A stretch of DNA of 64,000 nucleotides from Marivirga tractuosa DSM 4126 (GTDB taxonomy: Bacteria; Bacteroidota; Bacteroidia; Cytophagales; Cyclobacteriaceae). Location: positions 3,999,001 to 4,063,000 of the forward strand of contig NC_014759.1 in the NCBI RefSeq assembly GCF_000183425.1, written 5' to 3'. Of the stretch, positions 52,530 to 64,000 are shown one piece after another; position 1 is the stretch's first letter, and the number at the start of each line of letters is the position of its first letter. The position numbers were made by a program, and so were the translations under genes. The notes beneath the pieces were generated by a model. The model worked only from the letters and a program-made list of their open reading frames with translations. It did not search any database and was not told where the DNA came from.

Positions 52530-53606
52530 ATGAGGAAAATACTTTTCATTTTTCTTTTTTTAGTGCTCTCTGTTGAGATAAATGCTCAAATCTCTAAGCC
52601 TAAATATGCCAATGAATTTTTAGCTATTGGGGTAGGAGCAAGGGCTTTTGCGTTGGGTGGGGCTTCCGTGGCTTCGGTTGAAGGAGCTTCTGCAGGATAT
52701 TGGAATCCTGCAAAACTCTCAAGTCTGAAAACCGACCACTCTCTAGATTTAATGCATGCTGAATATTTTGCCGGAATAGCGGCTTACGATTATGTAGGAT
52801 TTGCTACTTCCATTGATGAAGATAGTAAAATGGGTTTTTCTTTAATCAGATTTGGTGTGGATGATATTCCAGATACCCGATTCATTTATGATGCCAATGG
52901 AGCCTTGAATTATGATAATATTCGCTTCTTTTCCGCTGCTGATTATGCTTTTCAGTTTTCTTATGCCCGCGACTTAAAGTTTTTGGATGGCTTATCTTTT
53001 GGGGCAAATGCAAAAGTAATTCACCGAACGGTAGGCGAATTTGCCAAGGCTTGGGGTTTTGGATTTGATTTGGGTACCCACTACAAATGGAAGAATTTGG
53101 ATGTGGGGTTGGTGGCTCGAGATGTCACAGGAACCTTTACCACCTGGTATCACAATATAACTATGATAGAAGATATTTATACCCAAACCAACAATGAAAT
53201 CCCTGAGAACACCACGGAAATGGCAGTTCCTCGATTAGTTTTTGGAACGGCTTACACTCAGGAGTTACCTTTTAAATTTTCCATAATGGGAGAAGTAAAT
53301 TTAGATGCTACTTTTGATGGCCCACGAAATACTTATGTTAGTGAAGATAAATTCTCTATTGATCCTCGAGCTGGTGTGGAAATAGGCTATGATAATATGG
53401 CTTTTGTTCGATTTGGTGGCAATAATCTTCAAAAGATCAAAAACTTTAATGGTACGGAAAGATGGAATGGACAAGCAAGTATTGGGGCTGGTTTTTGCTA
53501 CAAAATATTGCAAATTGATTATGCTTTCACCGATTTAGGAGATTATTCAGAATCACTTTATTCTCATGTTTTCACTTTGATTTTTAATTGGGATGCTAAA
53601 GAATAA
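52530..53606 (+). CDS. PorV/PorQ-family outer-membrane protein
   Basis: 358 aa. Signal peptide MRKILFIFLFLVLSVEINAQ. The mature start FLAIGVGARAFALGGASVASVEGASAGYWNPAKL is the family signature, followed by FadL-like barrel strands. In type IX secretion PorV shuttles cargo from the translocon to the PorU sortase. Because this gene overlaps the PorU gene by 14 bases, PorV is the likeliest role, but PorQ-like members look similar, so no symbol is given. Confidence 0.8.
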   Translation: MRKILFIFLFLVLSVEINAQISKPKYANEFLAIGVGARAFALGGASVASVEGASAGYWNPAKLSSLKTDHSLDLMHAEYFAGIAAYDYVGFATSIDEDSKMGFSLIRFGVDDIPDTRFIYDANGALNYDNIRFFSAADYAFQFSYARDLKFLDGLSFGANAKVIHRTVGEFAKAWGFGFDLGTHYKWKNLDVGLVARDVTGTFTTWYHNITMIEDIYTQTNNEIPENTTEMAVPRLVFGTAYTQELPFKFSIMGEVNLDATFDGPRNTYVSEDKFSIDPRAGVEIGYDNMAFVRFGGNNLQKIKNFNGTERWNGQASIGAGFCYKILQIDYAFTDLGDYSESLYSHVFTLIFNWDAKE

Positions 53607-56600
53607 ACTTTTTAATACCATATTAACCTTTGTTCTTTCCGCTTCTATTCATTTTGTTTCGGCACAGAACCCTCAATCTTGGATTAATTTCAATCAATCT
53701 TATTATAAAATAAGCCTAGAATCTACAGCTGCTTATGAATTGGAATATGATGATTTGCTGGATGCAGGAGTTCCACTTTCCACTATAGACGCTAGATCAT
53801 TACAGATTTTCTACAGAGGACAAGAAATTGCCATTAGAGTAAGCGGTCAAAGTGACGGTAGATTAGATCAGGGAGATGTAATTCAATTTTTAGGTAAAAG
53901 AAATGATGGGGTTTCCGATACTCCTTTGTATAGAAATCCTGAGGATCAGGCACATCAATACTATAATCTTTTTACAGACGAATCAGCTTATTTTTTGACT
54001 TGGAAGAACGATGGTACAAATGGTAAAAGGATTCAAGAGCAGAATATCATTAATAACACCAATAATTTGGCTGCAGAAAATGCAGTTGAAAAGGAAATTA
54101 TAAGGCTATTCACGAACAGTGCAGATCGAGGACAGCGTTATAGTCCGCAGGATGAAGTTTATTATTCTGCTTTCGATTTAGGTGAGGGATGGTCTGGTTC
54201 TGCATTTACTAATCCCACTAATTTTTCCATCACAGGCTTGGAACGGGCTGTTCGAACCGAACTTCCGCCTCGATTAGAAATTCTTATCCAAGGAAGAAAT
54301 ATTAGGCAGCATCAAACTGAGGTTTTGGTGGGACCAAGTGAAAATTCTTTAAGGTCGCTCGGTACTGTAAATTTTGATGAATATGAATATGTGACTTTTT
54401 CAGATGATTTGGAATGGACAGATGTGGCCAACAATGGAAGTATGGTCATAAGATTATTGCCTCAAGCGGAAGGTGCAGACAGGATATCACTGTCGTATAT
54501 CAAAATCAATTTTCAAAAAGAGCCTAATTATGATAATGAAGCGGGAGGGAAATTGACTTTAGAATCAAATCCCCTTGGTAGTTCGTATTTACAACTTTTC
54601 AATACTAATAGTACTGCACGACTTTATAGAACAGAAAATTTCAATGAGCCCATTTTATTGAAAACAAATAGGGTAGGGACTGAAATTAATACTGTTGTTG
54701 AAAATACCTTTGCTGGTGCAGAACTATTTTTGCAGAATCAGAACTTCCTTACTCCAAGCATTAAGAAGGTAAATTTCAGAGATTATGGTAATTTCAATCC
54801 TGATTATGTGATTTTGAGTCATCCAGATTTGGGTAGCCCTAGCGGAGATTACAATAATCCTGTTAAAGCTTATGCAGCTTATCGCAATTCTGAAGAAGGC
54901 GGTGGATATGATACTTTGGTGGTGGACATCAACCGACTCTATGATCAATTTAATTATGGCGAAACCTCGCCTTTAGCAGTTTATCGATTTACTCAATTCT
55001 TAGTAGAAAATACTAAAGCTGAAATGGTTTTCATTATAGGTAAAGGATTGAACTGGTATCATAGCTACTACAGAAGAAATGAAATTCCTAATGAATTATT
55101 CAATGAATATGTTCCCACAGCTGGCTCGCCTGGTTCCGACATTTTATTTGGTTTTGACTGGAAGGAAAATAATAGGGCAGCGATCTCTTTTGGAAGGTTG
55201 AATGCCCACAATAGCCAAAATGTAGCGGATTATCTGGATAAAATAAAAGAAATGGAAGCTAAGCCTTTTGATGATTTGAGGCGTAAACATTTTTTGAATT
55301 TAAGTGGAGGTATTTCATTTTTTGAAGTCAATAGGTTTTCGGGCTATATCAATGATTTTTCAACTTATGCTAAAAGCCCATATATAGGAGGAAATCATTC
55401 TAATTTTACTAAGGAAACTACGCAAGTGGTGGAGTTTATTAATGTGGCAGATCAAGTAAACCAAGGATTAAATTTGATTACTTTTTTTGGACACTCTGGT
55501 CCGAATACTGCGGATATTGATATTGGAAGAGTTTCTGATGAAAATTTAGGTTATAATAATAAAGGTAAATACCCTTTTATTTTGATTAATGGATGTGATG
55601 CTGGAGCTTTTTACCAAATTGCTAAGAATGAAACACCCTTTGGCGAAGATTGGGTAAATACGGCTGAAAAAGGTTCTTCTGGTATTTTAGCACATGCTTA
55701 CCTTGGCTTCCCAAATGAATTAAAGCGATACAGTGATTTGTTTTACGCCAATGCCTATGGAGATTCCGTTCTGATTGATCAACCTATCGGCCTCGTGCTT
55801 CAAAAGACCATAAATGATTATTTAGCTAATTTCGGGACTAATCCTGCCCCATTATACATGTCTCAAGCTCAGCAGATGAATTTATTATGTGATCCTGCTT
55901 ATAAACTTTTCCCTGCTGGAAAGCCTGATTATGCCATTTCGGATGAAGACTTAGAAGTAGTTTCCCTGGACGGACAGCCTATTGACGCCTTGACTTCTGA
56001 ATTTGGTTTAGATGTGATTATTCGAAATTATGGAATCACGAACGCAGATTCAATTGAGATTTTGGTAAAAAGGACTTTGCCCAATAATGAAGTAATTGTG
56101 CAGGACACTCAAAAAGTAGCCGCTATAAATTATCAGGATACTGTTACGCTTAGTATCTATAATGACCGTCCTGAAAGCTTTGGTCAAAATATATTGGAAG
56201 TGATCATCGATCCAAGCGGAAAAATTGAAGAGATTAAAGATGATAACAACACTGCAAGTATCAATTATTTTCTGACCTTAGGAACCACCTTGAATTTATA
56301 CCCTTATGATGAAGGCTTGAGTGATCAACAAAATATCACGCTTACTGCCCAATCAGTGGATTTACTTGCAGACGAAAGGGAATTTCTCTTCGAGTTGGAC
56401 ACTACACGATCATTTGATAGCCCTTATTTAAAGAAACAGAGTATTAGCGCCAAAGTAATTGCCAAGTGGGAAACGGATTTACTCTCCAATGATAATCAAG
56501 CCTATTTCTGGAGGTCGAAATTTGCTAACCCAAGAGAGGGCGAACTGGATGAATGGACTATTTCAAGCTTTACCTATACCAATTCTTCTGTGCAGGGCTG

Positions 56601-58599
56601 GCAACAAAACACTACTGATCAGTTTTTACTCAATACCATTGAGGGGATCACAATTGAAGATTCATGGACTTTTGAGGAAAACACTTTTAATCTAGAAGTA
56701 AGTGCTCCCGGCAATAGTGCTTTAGGAAGCCTAAGTATAAAAATCAATGGTAATGAATATGCCATTACCAATTTAAATGGTGCAGCTTGTCGAATTAATA
56801 GGCTTAATTTGCTTGCATTTGATAAATCCAATGCGGTACCTTACAGTATTTTAACAGATGGCAGTGCATTCGACCTAAATGATAATTTAACCTGTGGAAT
56901 TCGCCCTCAAGTCATCAATCAGATCAGTAATACGCAACTAGCTCAACCTGAAACCTATTTCAAAAAATATTTTGATGAATTACCCACTGGGGATATAGTC
57001 CTTTTATCTTCCTATGATAGTGTGGCTTGGAATATTTTACGCGCCAATAACAGAACCCAATTGCTTGATTTGGGTGCCTCAGCAAGTGTGATAGACAATC
57101 TTCAAAATGGTGATCCTTATATTTTATTGGGCAGAAAAGGATTGGGGGCTGGAAACGGAATTGAAGTTACAGCTACACAAACTCCAAAAAGTGAGCAAAG
57201 CATTTCATTGAATGAAGATGTTGAAGCTCGGTTTGAGTCCGGTACCATTATTTCTAAGACCATAGGGCCAGTGAAAGAATGGATTGAATTGGATGCGGAA
57301 TTTGAAGATATAGAGGCCTCTGACCAGATAAGGCTTGATGTATTTGGAATTGACACGCTTAGTAATCAAAGTTTATTGTTTTCAGATGCAGTCCTCCCAC
57401 TGGATATTTCTACCATAAATGTCAATCACTATCCTCAATTGCGTTTGAGGGTAACTTTTACTGATCCGGATAATTTAAGCCCAGCTAAGCTTGCCAAATG
57501 GAAAGTGAATTATCGAGAAGTACCGGATGCAGTTTTGCTTCCTTCCGAAATGGCCAACAGGGCTAGTACAGAATTAGCTGAAGGAGAAACTTTCAGTAAA
57601 TCATTTAGAGCCATTAATGTCACGCCAAATGATTTTGATGCCCCAATTCCCTATTTACGGCAAGTATTCAATAGAGAAGACCGGGTTTTTCATAATGAGA
57701 CCAATGCTTTAGCCCCTCTAGAAGCGGATGCTGATACTACTTTCTCCATAGAAGTAGATACCAGAGGTAAGGTGGGAGAAAACGACCTGACCCTAAGTCT
57801 CAACCCTAATTCTAATTACAATGAAAATAGATTAACCAATAATGTGATTTCATACCAAAGGCTTTTTGAGGTCAAAAAGGATTCATTACCACCATTTGTG
57901 GAGGTGACTTTCGATGGAATTTCCATATTAGATGGCGATATCGTTTCTCCTCGTCCGTATATCCAAATTAAATTAAAGGATGAAAATACGTTGATCAACA
58001 AATCTGATACCACTGGAATTGACATTCAATTACGAAGGGATTGTGAAGAATGTGTAAGTCAACGAATAAATTTTTCCAATCCTAATATTGAGTGGGTTTC
58101 CGCAACTGAAGAGAAAGCATTCACCGTAAATTACCAGCCGGATGCCTTAGAAGATGGAAACTATCAATTGAGCGTGCAAGCAACAGATGCCAGTAACAAC
58201 ACAGCAGGAGAGGAGCCTTATAAAGTGAGATTTGAAGTAATCAATGCCTCGACCATCACTAATTTCTATCCATATCCGAATCCTTTTTCTACCAGCACCC
58301 GCTTTGTGTTTACGCTAACAGGAACGGATTTACCACAGGAAATTAAAATTCAGATACTAACCGTGACTGGCAGGGTAGTAAGAGAAATTCTGCAAGATGA
58401 AATAGGCCCGATCCACATTGGAAACAACATTACCGATTACGCCTGGGACGGAAAAGATGAATTCGGGGATAGACTAGCCAATGGCGTTTATCTTTACAGA
58501 GTTTTAGTCCGAAAAGATGGAGTATTCATGGAACAGCGCGCCACAGCAGGGGATAAAGCCTTTACCAAAGGCTATGGGAAGTTGTATATTTTGAGGTGA
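53593..58599 (+). CDS. porU: Type IX secretion sortase PorU (peptidase C25 family)
   Basis: 1668 aa. Signal peptide MLKNKLFNTILTFVLSASIHFVSAQ. The gingipain-type C25 domain carries the catalytic pair in TFFGHSGPN (His634) and LINGCDAGAF (Cys668). Long beta-rich segments follow, then a type A sorting-like C-terminus (YPYPNPFSTSTRFVFTL, GKDEFGDRLANGVYLYRVLVRKD). PorU cleaves the sorting signal of secreted proteins at the cell surface. The protein is longer than the well-known P. gingivalis form because of extra beta domains. It overlaps the upstream gene by 14 bases. Confidence 0.92.
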   Translation: MLKNKLFNTILTFVLSASIHFVSAQNPQSWINFNQSYYKISLESTAAYELEYDDLLDAGVPLSTIDARSLQIFYRGQEIAIRVSGQSDGRLDQGDVIQFLGKRNDGVSDTPLYRNPEDQAHQYYNLFTDESAYFLTWKNDGTNGKRIQEQNIINNTNNLAAENAVEKEIIRLFTNSADRGQRYSPQDEVYYSAFDLGEGWSGSAFTNPTNFSITGLERAVRTELPPRLEILIQGRNIRQHQTEVLVGPSENSLRSLGTVNFDEYEYVTFSDDLEWTDVANNGSMVIRLLPQAEGADRISLSYIKINFQKEPNYDNEAGGKLTLESNPLGSSYLQLFNTNSTARLYRTENFNEPILLKTNRVGTEINTVVENTFAGAELFLQNQNFLTPSIKKVNFRDYGNFNPDYVILSHPDLGSPSGDYNNPVKAYAAYRNSEEGGGYDTLVVDINRLYDQFNYGETSPLAVYRFTQFLVENTKAEMVFIIGKGLNWYHSYYRRNEIPNELFNEYVPTAGSPGSDILFGFDWKENNRAAISFGRLNAHNSQNVADYLDKIKEMEAKPFDDLRRKHFLNLSGGISFFEVNRFSGYINDFSTYAKSPYIGGNHSNFTKETTQVVEFINVADQVNQGLNLITFFGHSGPNTADIDIGRVSDENLGYNNKGKYPFILINGCDAGAFYQIAKNETPFGEDWVNTAEKGSSGILAHAYLGFPNELKRYSDLFYANAYGDSVLIDQPIGLVLQKTINDYLANFGTNPAPLYMSQAQQMNLLCDPAYKLFPAGKPDYAISDEDLEVVSLDGQPIDALTSEFGLDVIIRNYGITNADSIEILVKRTLPNNEVIVQDTQKVAAINYQDTVTLSIYNDRPESFGQNILEVIIDPSGKIEEIKDDNNTASINYFLTLGTTLNLYPYDEGLSDQQNITLTAQSVDLLADEREFLFELDTTRSFDSPYLKKQSISAKVIAKWETDLLSNDNQAYFWRSKFANPREGELDEWTISSFTYTNSSVQGWQQNTTDQFLLNTIEGITIEDSWTFEENTFNLEVSAPGNSALGSLSIKINGNEYAITNLNGAACRINRLNLLAFDKSNAVPYSILTDGSAFDLNDNLTCGIRPQVINQISNTQLAQPETYFKKYFDELPTGDIVLLSSYDSVAWNILRANNRTQLLDLGASASVIDNLQNGDPYILLGRKGLGAGNGIEVTATQTPKSEQSISLNEDVEARFESGTIISKTIGPVKEWIELDAEFEDIEASDQIRLDVFGIDTLSNQSLLFSDAVLPLDISTINVNHYPQLRLRVTFTDPDNLSPAKLAKWKVNYREVPDAVLLPSEMANRASTELAEGETFSKSFRAINVTPNDFDAPIPYLRQVFNREDRVFHNETNALAPLEADADTTFSIEVDTRGKVGENDLTLSLNPNSNYNENRLTNNVISYQRLFEVKKDSLPPFVEVTFDGISILDGDIVSPRPYIQIKLKDENTLINKSDTTGIDIQLRRDCEECVSQRINFSNPNIEWVSATEEKAFTVNYQPDALEDGNYQLSVQATDASNNTAGEEPYKVRFEVINASTITNFYPYPNPFSTSTRFVFTLTGTDLPQEIKIQILTVTGRVVREILQDEIGPIHIGNNITDYAWDGKDEFGDRLANGVYLYRVLVRKDGVFMEQRATAGDKAFTKGYGKLYILR

Positions 58600-58775
58600 T
58601 GATGTTTTAATTTTAAGTGTAGAATTAAACGTTTATTATACGTATAATTATACGGTTATAGACTTTATTATTGTTCTTAATCCAATATAAAAGGCTTTTT
58701 TATTAACTATTAATTCAGTAGATTGCAAAGGATATAAAAGAAATAAATGCACCTAGAGGTGTACTTTATTCAATT
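58600..58775. other. Region upstream of the first cassette (possible attI or decayed site)
   Basis: It contains the palindrome ATTATACGTATAAT (58635-58648) and the small hairpin CACCT-AG-AGGTG (58750-58761). It separates porU from the cassette boundary at 58776. No integrase gene and no attC-like fold were seen; a degenerate attI is possible. Confidence 0.35.
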
Positions 58776-58784
58776 GTTGGGGTG
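58776..58784 (+). other. First cassette boundary, GTTGGGGTG
   Basis: This matches the integron core-site pattern GTTRRRY. Its exact reverse complement CACCCCAAC is at 60903-60911, where the attC-like site of this cassette begins. It therefore marks the start of cassette 1. Confidence 0.65.
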
Positions 58785-58799
58785 CATTAAAACGAACAT

Positions 58800-60899
58800 A
58801 TGAATAAGAGAACAAGATTAATATTCCTCGGGCTCTCTCTAATCCTGTTAATTGGAGTTGGGAGATTCGTAACGAATGACTTTAATTTCTTACTCAATGA
58901 TTTTTGGTTCACCTCAGGTTTCTTGCTTCTTATTTTACTCTCATTAATCGACCAACCTCATTTCTCAAAAGATTCTAGCATTTTCATTAATGCTGTAACT
59001 GCAGGAATATCACTTCTGTTAATTCCCGAAGAAAACAGAAATTGGGTTTTTTGGCTATTTCTTGGAATTACTTTGTATTTAGCAATAAGCAGTTATGTTT
59101 TAATGTGGCTGAGAAACAACCCCTTGCCACAAGAAAACAAGTGGATCCAATTCTTTTCAAGAGTCAATAGAGAGATTGGGAAACCTCAGACACTTTTTTC
59201 TGCATTTTTTCTTTGGGGTGCGTTGAATCAATTTGGATTAGGAAGTGAAGGCTTTAACGCTTTGTTATTGTATTGGGTCATTTTTATGATTCTCAACATA
59301 CCTTCGATAGCTCAGGTAATCAATAGATTATTTGAAAAGAACGAAACAAAAAAGCAAGAAAATGCTCTTGGGTCTATATTAGGTGTTCAGTCAAAAAACA
59401 CATTTTTAGTTAAGTTATTCTCAGATAGAAAAGAAACTATCAAGTTATTCGACTTTGTAGAGTTTATCTACTCAATAGATGACTCTCGTCAAATCAGAAA
59501 GGGGATAATCCTAGACACCTATTTACTCAATGAGCAACAGTGGATAAAGGTTCTCACAACCTCAGAAATCAATAAAATATTTGATGGTAAGCCTATATTC
59601 AATGAACATACAGATGATATTATTTACAAGATCTCTGATGTTCCAGAAAATGAGTACTTGGATACATTCGTAGGAATTGTAACTGAAAACTCTTCAATTC
59701 AAAAAATCAAGTTCATTTATAACTCCAAAGCTGCGGTAGAAGATGGACAACTTCTAGAAGTAAGAGTTAAAGAAGCTGTTGTCTATTATCAAATTGTCGA
59801 AGGCATAACTCGAATAGAGCAATTAGAAAATAAAAATGAAACAGGCTTGATAGTTGGAGAAGCAATTCAACTTGGGACTTGGAATCATGACAAAGTTAGG
59901 TTTGAGCAATTTGGTTGGGTTCCTGAAATAAATTCACCAGTCTATATCTCTTCAAAAATCCAAGAAGTAAAAATTTCAGAAACAGAGTTTCAGATTGGTC
60001 ATATACCAAATACAAACTTCCCAGTCATTATAAATAAGGAGTTAGCTTTAACTCACCACACAGCAGTTCTCGGGGTTACGGGGACAGGAAAATCAATTTT
60101 TGCCCGAAATCTTATCAGAGAGCATTTAAAGGACAAAACAATCAAAGTGATTTGTATTGATTTCACAGGTGAGTACAAGGGGAAATTTGCTGACTTGTCT
60201 CCGGTAAAAATCGTTTCAGAAGAAAAAGATAATGAACTCTATAAGACATTTGAATGGGTATCAAATGAGTTAGAGAAATTTGGGAATCAACAGAATAAGG
60301 AAAAGCTAAAGGATGCAGACGAGTTCATTAAAACGACTTTGAATGATGCTCTCCAGGCTTTCTTAAAAGAACCTGAGTCCAGGCTAAGCATTTTTGAACT
60401 TCCAGATGTTTCAAATACAGCCAGTATTTTAGAGTATACCAGACAATTATTCAAAGCCCTTTTTGTACTTGCAAAATCTGAAAGATGTTTTGGGCATAAG
60501 GTCTGCATTGTACTTGAAGAAGCTCACACAGTAATCCCTGAATGGAATTTTGTTGGAATAGCCGATAAGTCCTCTCAGTCTTTGCTTAACAGTATTGCTC
60601 AAATTGCTTTGCAAGGCCGTAAATATGATGTTGGACTATTAGTAATAGCACAGAGAACAGCAAACGTTTCAAAGACTGTTCTAACTCAATGTAATACAAT
60701 AATCTCCTTTCAAGAATTTGATAAAACCAGTAGCGAGTTCTTGGCAAACTATTTTGGACAAGGAATAGCAAGTACCCTTCCTAAACTTAAGTTTAGACAG
60801 GCAATCGCAGCCGGAAAGGCATTAAAATCAAATGTTCCAATGATTTTTGAAGTTCCCGAAATATTAGAACCTGAAGTTGAACAAGAAGAAGAAAAATAA
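58800..60899 (+). CDS. Membrane-anchored HerA/FtsK-like ATPase (cassette 1)
   Basis: 699 aa. The first 180 residues carry five to six hydrophobic helices (LIFLGLSLILLIGVGRFV, FLLLILLSLI, VFWLFLGITLYLAISSYVLMWL). A beta-rich middle follows, and then a HerA-type ATPase: Walker A GVTGTGKS (425-432), IDFTGEYKG, Walker B VCIVLEEAH (Glu573-574) and QGRKYDVGLLVIAQRTANVSKTVLTQCNTII. HerA ATPases drive DNA translocation or resection with NurA, and several serve in phage defence with a nuclease or Sir2 partner. No partner is in the cassette. Function unknown. Confidence 0.82.
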   Translation: MNKRTRLIFLGLSLILLIGVGRFVTNDFNFLLNDFWFTSGFLLLILLSLIDQPHFSKDSSIFINAVTAGISLLLIPEENRNWVFWLFLGITLYLAISSYVLMWLRNNPLPQENKWIQFFSRVNREIGKPQTLFSAFFLWGALNQFGLGSEGFNALLLYWVIFMILNIPSIAQVINRLFEKNETKKQENALGSILGVQSKNTFLVKLFSDRKETIKLFDFVEFIYSIDDSRQIRKGIILDTYLLNEQQWIKVLTTSEINKIFDGKPIFNEHTDDIIYKISDVPENEYLDTFVGIVTENSSIQKIKFIYNSKAAVEDGQLLEVRVKEAVVYYQIVEGITRIEQLENKNETGLIVGEAIQLGTWNHDKVRFEQFGWVPEINSPVYISSKIQEVKISETEFQIGHIPNTNFPVIINKELALTHHTAVLGVTGTGKSIFARNLIREHLKDKTIKVICIDFTGEYKGKFADLSPVKIVSEEKDNELYKTFEWVSNELEKFGNQQNKEKLKDADEFIKTTLNDALQAFLKEPESRLSIFELPDVSNTASILEYTRQLFKALFVLAKSERCFGHKVCIVLEEAHTVIPEWNFVGIADKSSQSLLNSIAQIALQGRKYDVGLLVIAQRTANVSKTVLTQCNTIISFQEFDKTSSEFLANYFGQGIASTLPKLKFRQAIAAGKALKSNVPMIFEVPEILEPEVEQEEEK

Positions 60900-60904
60900 C
60901 GACA

Positions 60905-61035
60905 CCCCAACATTGGCTATACGTAATGCGGGCGAAAGTGCTGCTATGAAAGTAATTACATTAAATAAACTTATCGGTAAACGGACAGTGAGGTGCCTTG
61001 AAATCCCGCACTACGCATAGCCGAGACCGTTATAC
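60905..61035 (+). other. attC-like site 1
   Basis: Starts with CCCCAAC (60905-60911) and ends with GTTATAC (61029-61035). The arms ATTGGCTATACGTAATGCGG (from 60912) and CCCGCACTACGCATAGCC (61005-61022) pair with a few mismatches, as in attC sites. The opening CACCCCAAC is the exact complement of the cassette start at 58776 (9 nt). Confidence 0.75.
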
Positions 61036-61073
61036 TTCATTAGTGCTATCAATTAACATTAGAAAACTATTAT

Positions 61074-62036
61074 ATGAGATATGCTATTATAATTTTATTA
61101 ACTCAGATAATGATTTCTTCATGCACTATGGATATCGAAGATTTTGCAGAGGGCAGAGAGGATATTCCAGAAATTATAAGAGACCGAATTTCAAAATCTG
61201 AACTAATTCAGAAAGATGATAGCATCATAATGATGATTTATGACTATTCGCAACTTATACCCACATTTGAAATCTATGATGAGGCCTTTACAATGCTAAC
61301 CAAAAATCATCTAATCAGATTTTATATGACGGAAGACGGAGAAGAAAACATTCAGAAAATTGATTTGCGAGAGTGCTTAAGTGTAAAAATAAAACCAATT
61401 TTTAAGCAACGTGATCATCTTACCTATCATGTAGAAGGAGAGCAATTGGGATCACACTGGTTCAGCGAAAAGACAAAAAGATATGAATTGGTAACGGAAA
61501 CAAATAGTGTATACTATGGTGGTGCCTCTAAAAATGAAAAGAAGCTTAAGGAAATGAACAATCTAATTATAGAAACATGGAAAAAGCAAGACAAGTACGA
61601 CAGTTTGAGGCAAATTTATCGCAATTTTTTTGATGAAAACGATAATCGAATAGTAACTGATGATGTTAAAATATCCAGAGAAAAACTGCAATCATTAAAA
61701 AAACGAATTAAACCTTATTCTGAAAAGATAGAAGATAAAACTGATTTGCTAATAATCGTTCGTCAAGGAAAAATTTTACAAGTTCAATACGACTACTTTG
61801 AGAAACAATTTAACATTTTGGAAATACAAGTTGAAAATATACCAAGTGATGAATCTGAAATTTCATCAATAGTCTTCTATTATATTGCATTAACAAAGGG
61901 GGGTAGAGAAAAACTAAAAATGCCTTATGAATACAAAACAGAGTTTAAGAAAATAACTTATTTAAATGCAGAAAAAATATATGCAAAAAGTATTGAAGAC
62001 ATTTTAGAAAAATACTATCAACAATCGGAAAAATAA
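61074..62036 (+). CDS. Unknown lipoprotein (cassette 2)
   Basis: 320 aa. The signal MRYAIIILLTQIMISSC gives a lipobox ISSC with Cys17. The mature protein is charged and mixed alpha/beta (DDSIIMMIYDYSQLIPTFEIYDEAFTML, YDSLRQIYRNFFDENDN), with no recognised motif. It starts 39 bases after the attC-like boundary GTTATAC at 61029 and lies alone in its cassette, without a promoter that I can recognise. It may be surface- or periplasm-facing. Function unknown. Confidence 0.7.
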   Translation: MRYAIIILLTQIMISSCTMDIEDFAEGREDIPEIIRDRISKSELIQKDDSIIMMIYDYSQLIPTFEIYDEAFTMLTKNHLIRFYMTEDGEENIQKIDLRECLSVKIKPIFKQRDHLTYHVEGEQLGSHWFSEKTKRYELVTETNSVYYGGASKNEKKLKEMNNLIIETWKKQDKYDSLRQIYRNFFDENDNRIVTDDVKISREKLQSLKKRIKPYSEKIEDKTDLLIIVRQGKILQVQYDYFEKQFNILEIQVENIPSDESEISSIVFYYIALTKGGREKLKMPYEYKTEFKKITYLNAEKIYAKSIEDILEKYYQQSEK

Positions 62037-62040
62037 AGAA

Positions 62041-62237
62041 GTATAACATTCTGTCATAAATCATGGCTGTTAGTAGGTTATTGTTCCTTCAGCTCTTTGT
62101 AGAAAGCCCGGCAATCCGCAGGCTTGCCTTATTGGTGAAAGTTAATTTAATAAGCCAATCCTGCGGATTGCCTCGGTAGTTAACGCAAATTTTTATACTT
62201 TTAATCAGCCACGAATTTATACAGTGGCGTTAGATCC
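62041..62237 (+). other. attC-like site 2
   Basis: Starts GTATAAC (62041-62047) and ends GTTAGAT (62231-62237), a perfect GTTRRRY. The arms ATTCTGTCATAAATCATGGC (from 62048) and CAGCCACGAATTTATACAG (from 62208) pair imperfectly. A nested inverted repeat (GGCAATCCGCAGG with CCTGCGGATTGCC) fills the centre. GAAGTATAAC at 62038-62047 is the exact 10-nt complement of the start of cassette 2. Confidence 0.78.
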
Positions 62238-62243
62238 AATACC

Positions 62244-62813
62244 ATGATTCGATATTTTCTACTAATTATCATAATGTCTGCATGCTCTCCTAGTAACGAG
62301 GATTGTTTGAAAAAACTGAACAATGAGCTTGATTCTAAGTATGCTGAACCTCTTGACGAGTTGACCCTCGAATTTGAACGGATTGTGATGAAATCAGACG
62401 GTTCAAGTTTCCCTGATAAATGTAGAAATTTCCTAAAACCGCTTGCGTCTGGGAAGGATCAAGAATTCTACTCGAAAATTGTCAAGAGAGAGGAGCTTGT
62501 CAATGCTGTTGCAGGATTGGACACTATGATTTTCAAGTATGAATTCCATACAACGGATAGCCTCTCAACTAGGAAACATATTTCGAACAAATGGAATAGT
62601 AATTTTATCAAAGCACTATCAACCTTAAAAGAATGTGACGAATTGATTTCCGGATATGTAGAAACTATAGTGGAAACTGGAGGATTAGGACCTGTTCTAG
62701 TGGCGAATGGAGCAATTATGAATTACAGTGATGAAGATTTCAACAACCCAATTGTCAAGCGAATACTAGCAGTGGAAGTTCTTCTACCCTATCTGACATA
62801 TTCTCCTGAATAA
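62244..62813 (+). CDS. Unknown lipoprotein (cassette 3)
   Basis: 189 aa. The signal MIRYFLLIIIMSAC gives a short lipobox with Cys14. The mature part is helical: EDCLKKLNNELDSKYAEPLDELTLEFERIV, then a middle region and a C-terminal GGLGPVLVANGAIMNYSDEDFNNPIVKRILAVEVLLPYL. No family is recognised. The start codon is 6 bases after the cassette boundary GTTAGAT at 62231, so the gene fills its cassette tightly. Confidence 0.7.
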   Translation: MIRYFLLIIIMSACSPSNEDCLKKLNNELDSKYAEPLDELTLEFERIVMKSDGSSFPDKCRNFLKPLASGKDQEFYSKIVKREELVNAVAGLDTMIFKYEFHTTDSLSTRKHISNKWNSNFIKALSTLKECDELISGYVETIVETGGLGPVLVANGAIMNYSDEDFNNPIVKRILAVEVLLPYLTYSPE

Positions 62814-62819
62814 AAATGT

Positions 62820-63033
62820 CTCTAACATTACCTAAAAATGCATTCGCTAACTGCATTTAGCAAAGTGAGGAATTACTTCGCCACAAAGCCAAACATTTAG
62901 ATGCATTTAAAGAAAAGGCAAACAAAGTGCTTCTCTCCTTTTACTGCTTTGCAATTGTAGTTATGGTTTGGCTTTGCTACTTTAGTACTTCGTCAGCGAA
63001 GTGTGGCAAACGCATTTTAGCATGGCGTTAGCG
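62820..63033 (+). other. attC-like site 3
   Basis: Starts CTCTAAC (62820-62826) and ends GTTAGCG (63027-63033). TCTAAC is the exact 6-nt complement of the start of cassette 3 (GTTAGA at 62231); the next base differs. The long interior folds with several nested arms, including AAGCCAAACAT with ATGGTTTGGCTT and ACTTCGCCAC with GCGAAGTGTGGC. At 214 bases it is among the long attC sites. Confidence 0.72.
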
Positions 63034-63036
63034 AGA

Positions 63037-63477
63037 ATGAAGGTTCTAATTTACATACCAATCTTAATAGCAGTTCTTTCTGGTTGCAGTGAACCTGCCA
63101 CGGAAAATCAGAAGTATCAAGTCTCTGTAGACTACGAATATGATATGTCACGAATCAATAGACCTTCTAACAGACTATCAAAAAACACCTTATATCTGTT
63201 TTTTGAACAAATTTTTGAGCAGGATACGATTGATATCTATTTAAATACTAAGAAAACTTCGGAGCGTAAAATCATAACGACTGAAGATATGCTCGCTCTT
63301 GCTGACGTCTTCGAATTTAAGAATATAGAAGCAATTCATTCTATCAAAATTCGAATGAATTCAGGACCAATATTATCAATAAATACAGAGAACAACGAAA
63401 AGAATATATGGCGGGTAGGCTTTTGGTCGGATACTTTAAGGGCTCTACCTTTAAGAAGTCCTCCTATTTATGACTGA
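63037..63477 (+). CDS. Unknown lipoprotein (cassette 4)
   Basis: 146 aa from the ATG at 63037. A longer frame starts upstream at 63001, but it would run back into the attC-like site. The signal MKVLIYIPILIAVLSGC gives lipobox LSGC with Cys17. The mature protein is short and polar (SEPATENQKYQVSVDYEYDM, KKTSERKIITTEDMLALADVF) with no recognised motif. The start is 3 bases after the cassette boundary GTTAGCG. It is the third lipoprotein cassette in a row. Confidence 0.7.
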   Translation: MKVLIYIPILIAVLSGCSEPATENQKYQVSVDYEYDMSRINRPSNRLSKNTLYLFFEQIFEQDTIDIYLNTKKTSERKIITTEDMLALADVFEFKNIEAIHSIKIRMNSGPILSINTENNEKNIWRVGFWSDTLRALPLRSPPIYD

Positions 63478-63481
63478 CTCT

Positions 63482-63724
63482 CGCTAACATGGCATAAAAC
63501 CCATTTGCTCACCACCCTGTAGAAAAGTGTCTGCTAAATAGCCCGTAATTTATGCTTGCTTTCCATAGCGGGCAACTAAAGATACTGCCTTTGGGCAATT
63601 ATGGCACTTATTTATTCTGAGCTTTTGCAATTAATGAAGTGTATCAGTTTGTGGAGAAAGCATAAATTACTACTTTCAGTATTTCATAGCCTAGTATAAC
63701 AAACGGGTTTTATACAGGTTGGCA
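63482..63724 (+). other. attC-like site 4
   Basis: Starts CGCTAAC (63482-63488) and ends GTTGGCA (63718-63724). CTCGCTAAC (63480-63488) is the exact 9-nt complement of GTTAGCGAG at the start of cassette 4 (63027). The arms ATGGCATAAAACCCATTTG (from 63489) and AAACGGGTTTTATACAG (63701-63717) pair. The last core triplet departs from GTTRRRY. Confidence 0.72.
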
Positions 63725-63784
63725 ACAATAGCGCTCCTTGCAATTGATTCGAATTTGGTGTATATTTACATCAAACTTTAAATT

Positions 63785-64000
63785 ATGGCACGTCAAAGTA
63801 TTTCATTTACCGAACCGAATGACGAGTGGTTAAAATCCCAAGTCGACAGTCAGGAATATTCAAGCAAAAGCGAATTAGTGAACGATTTAATCCGACAAGC
63901 AAGAAGCCAACAAAAGCAAATTGATTGGATTAAAGCAAAACTTGAAAAATCGGAGAAAAGTGGTTTTACAGATGCAACTAAAGAACAGATTTTAGCAGAA
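63785..64000 (+). CDS. ParD-like ribbon-helix-helix antitoxin (cassette 5, cut by window end)
   Basis: 72 codons up to the window edge. MARQSISFTEPNDEWLKSQV followed by EYSSKSELVNDLIRQARSQQKQIDWIKAKLEK is the ribbon-helix-helix start of CopG/ParD-type antitoxins, which bind DNA as dimers and neutralise a ParE-type toxin. The usual length is about 80 residues, so only the end is missing. A toxin gene should follow just outside the window. Toxin-antitoxin cassettes are common in chromosomal integrons, where they stabilise the array. Confidence 0.8.
   Translation, partial: MARQSISFTEPNDEWLKSQVDSQEYSSKSELVNDLIRQARSQQKQIDWIKAKLEKSEKSGFTDATKEQILAE

Follow-up and report, generated by a model that had tools for sequence, protein, structure and literature searches.

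A cassette array without an integrase in Marivirga tractuosa and its place in a proposed non-IntI integron-type system of Bacteroidia

Which enzyme could have assembled a row of gene cassettes at a locus where no integrase is encoded? The question was raised by the right-hand end of a 64,000-nucleotide (nt) stretch of the chromosome of Marivirga tractuosa DSM 4126 (NC_014759.1, positions 3,999,001 to 4,063,000; hereafter the window), where an earlier note had described four gene cassettes with attC-like sites, found no integrase, and read the whole as CALIN-like (CALIN, cluster of attC sites lacking integron integrases). The four cassettes are real, and the finding is larger than first described: the array has an attI-like site and no integrase, and goes with an integron-type, non-IntI system of Bacteroidia. 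It is probable, in our judgement, that Marivirga has a chromosomal integron system of which the window carries the third array, the one without an integrase, and that a Bacteroidia recombinase other than IntI serves this array in trans. Genomes, contigs and loci are given below by working handles (G, C and L numbers) where they have to be told apart. The features of the array, in window coordinates, are as follows.

53593..58599, + strand: porU-like gene, left flank of the array
58719..58726, + strand: 8-nt motif TAGATTGC, shared with the 3' ends of several integrase genes
58745..58775, + strand: attI-like site, an imperfect palindrome AAATGCACCT-AG-AGGTGTACTTT, then ATTCAATT, then the GTT of the first cassette
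58776..61028, + strand: cassette 1, gene 58800-60899 (HerA/DUF87-type ATPase), attC-like site 60903-61028
61029..62228, + strand: cassette 2, gene 61074-62036 (without Pfam match; lipoprotein-like by eye), attC-like site 62038-62228
62229..63026, + strand: cassette 3, gene 62244-62813 (without Pfam match; lipoprotein-like by eye), attC-like site 62821-63026
63027..63717, + strand: cassette 4, gene end 63477 (without Pfam match; lipoprotein-like by eye), attC-like site 63479-63717
63718..64000, + strand: start of cassette 5, ParD/ParE-like toxin-antitoxin pair; the cassette runs beyond the window

For delimitation of the cassettes, complementarity between the start of each cassette and the start of its own attC-like site was used. 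This pairing covers 9 nt in cassette 1 (GTTGGGGTG at 58776, CACCCCAAC at 60903), 10 nt in cassette 2 (GTTATACTTC at 61029, GAAGTATAAC at 62038) and 10 nt in cassette 4 (GTTAGCGAGA at 63027, TCTCGCTAAC at 63479); the last had been reported as 9 nt from 63480, so that the pairing itself stands and its length and position are corrected. Cassette 3 pairs over only 6 nt (GTTAGA at 62229, TCTAAC at 62821), as had been noted, with its start at 62229 and not at 62231. Among 19,231 GTT/AAC pairs lying 400-2200 nt apart in window positions 1-58000, a pairing of at least 9 nt was reached by 0.088% and one of at least 6 nt by 2.4%; the pairing in cassettes 1, 2 and 4 is therefore far beyond chance, and that in cassette 3, taken alone, is weak. 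Counted from where R'' begins as far as the following GTT, attC-like sites 1, 2 and 4 are 126, 191 and 239 nt long. The inner stems were located independently of the pairing; that of site 1 stops exactly at the start of cassette 2, and that of site 2 stops at 62229, the start of cassette 3. All 9 of the 9 congeners have the site family of cassette 3 as well. One member of this family, at L036 8304-8507 (C2:1320304-1320507), stands alone, and no array was detected within the surrounding 16 kb.

The array extends beyond the window to about window position 67,500 (L001 10515). Cassette 5, with the ParDE-like pair, has a 9-nt end pair with one mismatch, and beyond it the ends are partly degenerate: an R pair was looked for in cassette 6 and none was found, and cassette 8 pairs over only 6 nt with one mismatch. 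As the earlier note had said, the window encodes no integrase, and no tyrosine recombinase lies there, none of the 10 Phage_integrase places found in the genome falling within it; an Rfam search of the window gave no match. By the site criteria of this analysis the array thus has at least two attC-like sites with no integrase nearby, as a CALIN does.

Two paralogous tyrosine recombinases are encoded elsewhere on the chromosome, at C2:2331695-2332810 and C2:133142-134263, and each is followed directly downstream by a cassette chain on the same strand. Eight linked cassettes follow the first gene, beginning 48 nt past its last codon with an attI-like palindrome in between, and at all 7 of the 7 internal junctions the site end predicted from the inner stem coincides with the start that R pairing gives for the following cassette. 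Two linked cassettes follow the second gene. Beyond this short array, on the opposite strand, lies a reverse transcriptase of group II intron type, as judged by eye (L002 5-631, + strand).

The comparison was then widened to 28 loci of the recombinase clade from relatives, Flavobacteriaceae, other Flavobacteriales, a Saprospiraceae bacterium and a Persicobacter plasmid (L103). A downstream chain of at least two linked cassettes was present in 15 of the 18 loci with at least 3 kb of downstream sequence, and no upstream chain was detected in any of the 28, over stretches of unequal length (1.1-15 kb). Across 24 locus entries, 157 linked cassettes with R pairing of at least 8 nt were counted, a few of which may be chance; the longest open reading frame lay on the array strand in 131 of 135 linked cassettes (17 locus entries; median length 885 nt). 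The detector cannot tell an array from its reverse complement, and orientation was taken from the genes and the integrase. Alignment gaps in the L stem fall on both arms (92 left, 100 right), and for this reason no claim is made on strand choice. In G001, L106 and L109 the draft contig stops 47-195 nt past the integrase, where the attI-like site lies or close to it; repeats there may break assemblies, and arrays may be under-counted in drafts. Matches at E 1e-80 or better in 97 of 395 sampled genomes include relatives of about 300 residues and are not usable as an integron count.

The array recombinase is not IntI. A search of the genome with the TIGR02249 profile gave no match over the cut-off of 265 bits, the two Marivirga recombinases scoring 187.5 and 206.4 bits, and both pass NF040815 (220.8 and 230.5 bits; cut-off 220). 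The NCBI name "site-specific tyrosine recombinase/integron integrase", carried by some members, probably stems from this broad model. For direct comparison, 14 IntI sequences were assembled: nine picked by match length (all 458-506 bits on TIGR02249), four over the cut-off, and one annotated as IntI1 (L104). The spacing from the catalytic beta-hairpin to HxxR is 58 residues in 22 of 23 clade sequences and 59 in the other, 56-59 in archaeal XerA-like proteins, 64-66 in the XerC and XerD of the genome, and 100-105 in all 14 IntI. The IntI-specific insert is absent from 23/23 clade recombinases and present in 14/14 IntI; the match to IntI4 (2a3v) breaks exactly at the position of the insert, and XerA aligns along its full length. 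By sequence the catalytic core is nearest archaeal XerA, which is also among the best matches by fold, and a whole-protein Foldseek search recovered the recombinase core only. The housekeeping XerD of the genome is separate from the array recombinases. In a tree of 65 recombinases, IntI form one clade (100/100), with this family outside it. The system is not an IntI integron: the defining feature of such integrons was looked for and is absent. At its N terminus the array recombinase carries an extra domain of about 80-100 residues, whose predicted fold is tentatively XPB-DRD/HARP-like.

These results bear on the idea of an ordinary CALIN, in which the cassettes stem from, and are even now mobilised by, a canonical IntI integron that lost its integrase here, and the recombinase next to the sister arrays stands there by coincidence. 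The attC-like anatomy, including R pairing over 8-11 nt, matches that of IntI arrays read by the same method, and canonical IntI over the TIGR02249 cut-off is frequent elsewhere in the phylum as defined by GTDB (105 of 395 sampled genomes). However, the Marivirga genome has no such match; of the 107 sampled genomes with TIGR02249 matches, 106 share only the phylum with the window organism and one (G075) its class; and in 15 of 18 testable loci the attI end of the array adjoins the non-IntI recombinase. We therefore regard the ordinary CALIN as unlikely. In the earlier reading the cassette array and the attC-like anatomy hold, but an attI-like site is present and the sister arrays adjoin a non-IntI recombinase; the array is better read as an integrase-less, attI-bearing array of a non-IntI integron system.

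The IntI arrays just referred to come from 13 positive-control loci with IntI or related recombinases, 7 of which had at least 1.5 kb upstream of the gene. On these upstream sides, linked cassettes with R pairing of 8-11 nt were found in L152, L159 and L180, only 6-nt pairs, judged chance, in L165, and no linked cassettes in L158, L161 and L162. The linked pairs seen on the downstream side in L157, L176 and L180 were 6-9 nt long and were likewise put down to chance. An R pairing of 9-10 nt had been considered as a distinctive trait of the Bacteroidia arrays and was dropped, the IntI-type controls showing 8-11 nt.

Less likely still is that the recombinase is a passenger, inserted beside arrays that something else moves. 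Related recombinases without a detectable array do exist (e.g. L127, L129, L139 and L140; likewise G014, G016 and L103). Against this, the strand and the spacing are constant, whether in Marivirga, in another genus of its family or in five Flavobacteriaceae: in 12 of the 15 array loci 40-92 nt separate the last codon from the first linked cassette (in the other three, 688, 949 and 2417 nt), and the same divergent partner gene is found upstream of the recombinase in 27 of 28 loci. This gene encodes a Zn-finger-like protein of about 125 residues without Pfam match (e.g. L003 5206-5595, - strand) and is possibly a directionality or regulatory partner.

Comparison across the genus was used to look for cassette gain and loss, as the earlier note had advised. 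Protein identity (98% to a protein of Marivirga sp.) places the genome in this genus. The array is flanked by the porU-like gene and a TPR/thioredoxin-like gene, both named by eye. The C-terminal part of the former is present in 10 of 10 genomes of the genus, that of the window included, and the latter in 8 of 10. In G005 and G009 the gap between the two genes is about 120 bp. The 5-kb interval of G003 was scanned and is cassette-free, with one long gene on the other strand instead, and G003 was for this reason counted as unfilled. With cassettes, the interval measures about 9, 11 and 15 kb in G000, G004 and G006, respectively; G004 (eight detected cassettes) and G006 (six) have no start sequence in common, and G007 has one detected cassette after porU. 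The contig of G001 stops early, and in G002 and G008 the left and right flanking genes fall on separate contigs. Gene order and spacers are thus not conserved (G005, G009 and G003 against G004 and G006), and the locus gains and loses cassettes.

Cassettes were also found in exact copies. In the array of G005 one 853-nt cassette occurs three times (853/853 identical), with unlike left neighbours and three different next cassettes, and in G009 two further cassettes are duplicated exactly (643/643 and 758/758). The boundaries of the duplicated cassettes fall at GTT in both genomes. Such duplicates, together with the unfilled sites, would be the traces of integrase-catalysed attC x attI recombination. 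That the locus holds inherited palindromic intergenic repeats between ordinary genes, with no cassette mobility, is very improbable: some site families are similar at many places, but complementarity links the own start and end of each cassette rather than neighbouring ends, exact copies of whole units occur among new neighbours, three congeners have the locus unfilled, and 12 control strand-stretches outside arrays yielded 0-1 linked pairs.

The cargo includes the HerA-type ATPase of the window and, in the integrase-linked array, a methylase cassette that also carries what looks like an HNH gene. A defence pair similar to PD-Lambda-2 A/B lies at L035 10362-11037, in the far part of the same array region; cassette ends of its own were looked for at this pair and not found.

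In the sister arrays, judged by anatomy, an attI-like site stands beside the integrase; the window array has the attI-like site with no adjacent integrase. The palindrome between integrase and first cassette scores at least 8 in 17 of 27 loci, compared with 5.1% of random 95-nt pieces. Its arms are similar among related integrases and unlike between clades, and the porU-locus arrays of G004 and G006 open with the attI type that adjoins the integrase in G006. The palindrome is a candidate binding site. At the porU locus of G000, G001, G004 and G006 the array opens with TAGATTGC, palindrome and first GTT, and in G007 a palindrome without this motif precedes at least one cassette. The motif at 58719-58726 may be an integrase remnant or an attI accessory motif. 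What follows TAGATTGC at the porU locus varies between species.

Several observations weigh against the proposed system. Ten of the 27 loci (G005, G008, G016, G017, G024, L103, L106, L109, L110 and L113) have a palindrome score under 8, and the palindrome could partly be a transcription terminator. Support for the recombinase clade is only 88/74 in the tree of 65 sequences, and an approximately unbiased (AU) test does not reject the union of this clade with IntI (p 0.062), so a shared origin with IntI followed by loss of the insert is a possible history. The fold match of the N-terminal domain is modest and nearly tied with unrelated folds. In 3 of the 18 loci, namely G014, G016 and L103 (the Persicobacter plasmid), no chain follows the recombinase. 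In the window array, cassettes 6-8 appear degenerate, and the array may be decaying rather than active. Cassette arrays also occur downstream of recombinases from other branches. A single clade uniting the array-linked long-N integrases (L117, L121, L128 and L134) with the present recombinases was rejected (AU p 2.55e-70); arrays therefore accompany more than one recombinase branch, or the association has other causes. One of the long-N integrases, from Arundinibacter (L117 9164-11221), has 558 residues with three HARP-like repeats by eye; next to it comes an SSB gene, and a cassette chain after that.

The anatomy of the arrays, the adjacency of recombinase and cassettes, the duplicated cassettes with exact boundaries and the filled and unfilled loci were all observed, and integron-like working is strongly supported by anatomy and traces. 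In the system that we propose, cassettes, each consisting of one gene or a small operon and an attC-like site, would be excised as circles and inserted beside the attI-like palindrome. Catalysis is ascribed to the Bacteroidia tyrosine recombinase encoded elsewhere on the chromosome, beside the two sister arrays, from where it would act on the window array in trans. Its N-terminal domain, in place of the IntI insert, may bind the folded or forked cassette site, which would be used as a single strand. Beyond Marivirga, it seems to us somewhat more probable than the contrary that integrons are not tied to IntI, and that a separate Bacteroidia lineage of tyrosine recombinases, without the IntI insert that is regarded as necessary, captures and shuffles cassettes with folded attC-type sites by means of an N-terminal domain similar to those that bind forks or single-stranded DNA. 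Such a system would be widespread and would have been missed because integron searches key on IntI.

A gene-capturing system of Bacteroidia may therefore have been overlooked. The definition of integrons rests on IntI with its additional domain, and a second recombinase lineage on the same platform, if true, would widen the class and would offer a natural experiment on what is required to recombine folded sites. It would also imply a cassette pool with restriction-modification, PD-Lambda-2, HerA and toxin-antitoxin genes in Bacteroidia, where complete integrons have scarcely been reported, and some "CALINs" and "XerD" annotations would need re-examination.

In the archaeal-integron paper the IntI-specific domain counts as a defining trait (PMC9668308). 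For the Bacteroidetes/Chlorobi group, intI is recorded in a survey of 2008 (PMC2426708), and the IntegronFinder 2.0 paper states that only In0 elements had earlier been found in Bacteroidetes and adds a complete integron in Salinibacter (PMC9024848). The rarity of integrons in Bacteroidota, as put forward in the earlier note, agrees with that account, but canonical IntI is frequent in the GTDB phylum outside the class of the window organism. Among the matches listed in the open-licence PMC literature, which includes few subscription papers and no preprints, no description of non-IntI integrons of Bacteroidota or Bacteroidia was found.

Set beside the sedentary chromosomal integrons with IntI, such as those of Vibrio and Xanthomonas, the Bacteroidia arrays likewise have cassettes on one strand, attC-like sites with an R stem, an unpaired spacer and an inner L stem, GTT/AAC boundaries, attI beside the integrase, duplicated cassettes, and defence and toxin-antitoxin cargo. 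Canonical intI is usually divergent from its cassettes, whereas the Bacteroidia integrase gene is co-directed with them and attI lies past its 3' end. The Bacteroidia integrase also lacks the IntI-specific insert and carries an extra N-terminal domain, attI is often palindromic, and the divergent Zn-finger-like gene is nearly constant. With a CALIN, the window array shares several attC-like sites and the lack of a nearby integrase, but it opens with its own attI-like site, and the same chromosome carries, at other places, non-IntI integrases that accompany arrays of this kind. XerA, which resolves chromosome dimers at dif, is the archaeal protein nearest to the core, and both Marivirga recombinases exceed the NF040815 cut-off; unlike XerA, they adjoin cassette arrays and carry an added N-terminal domain, in a genome that has its own XerD.

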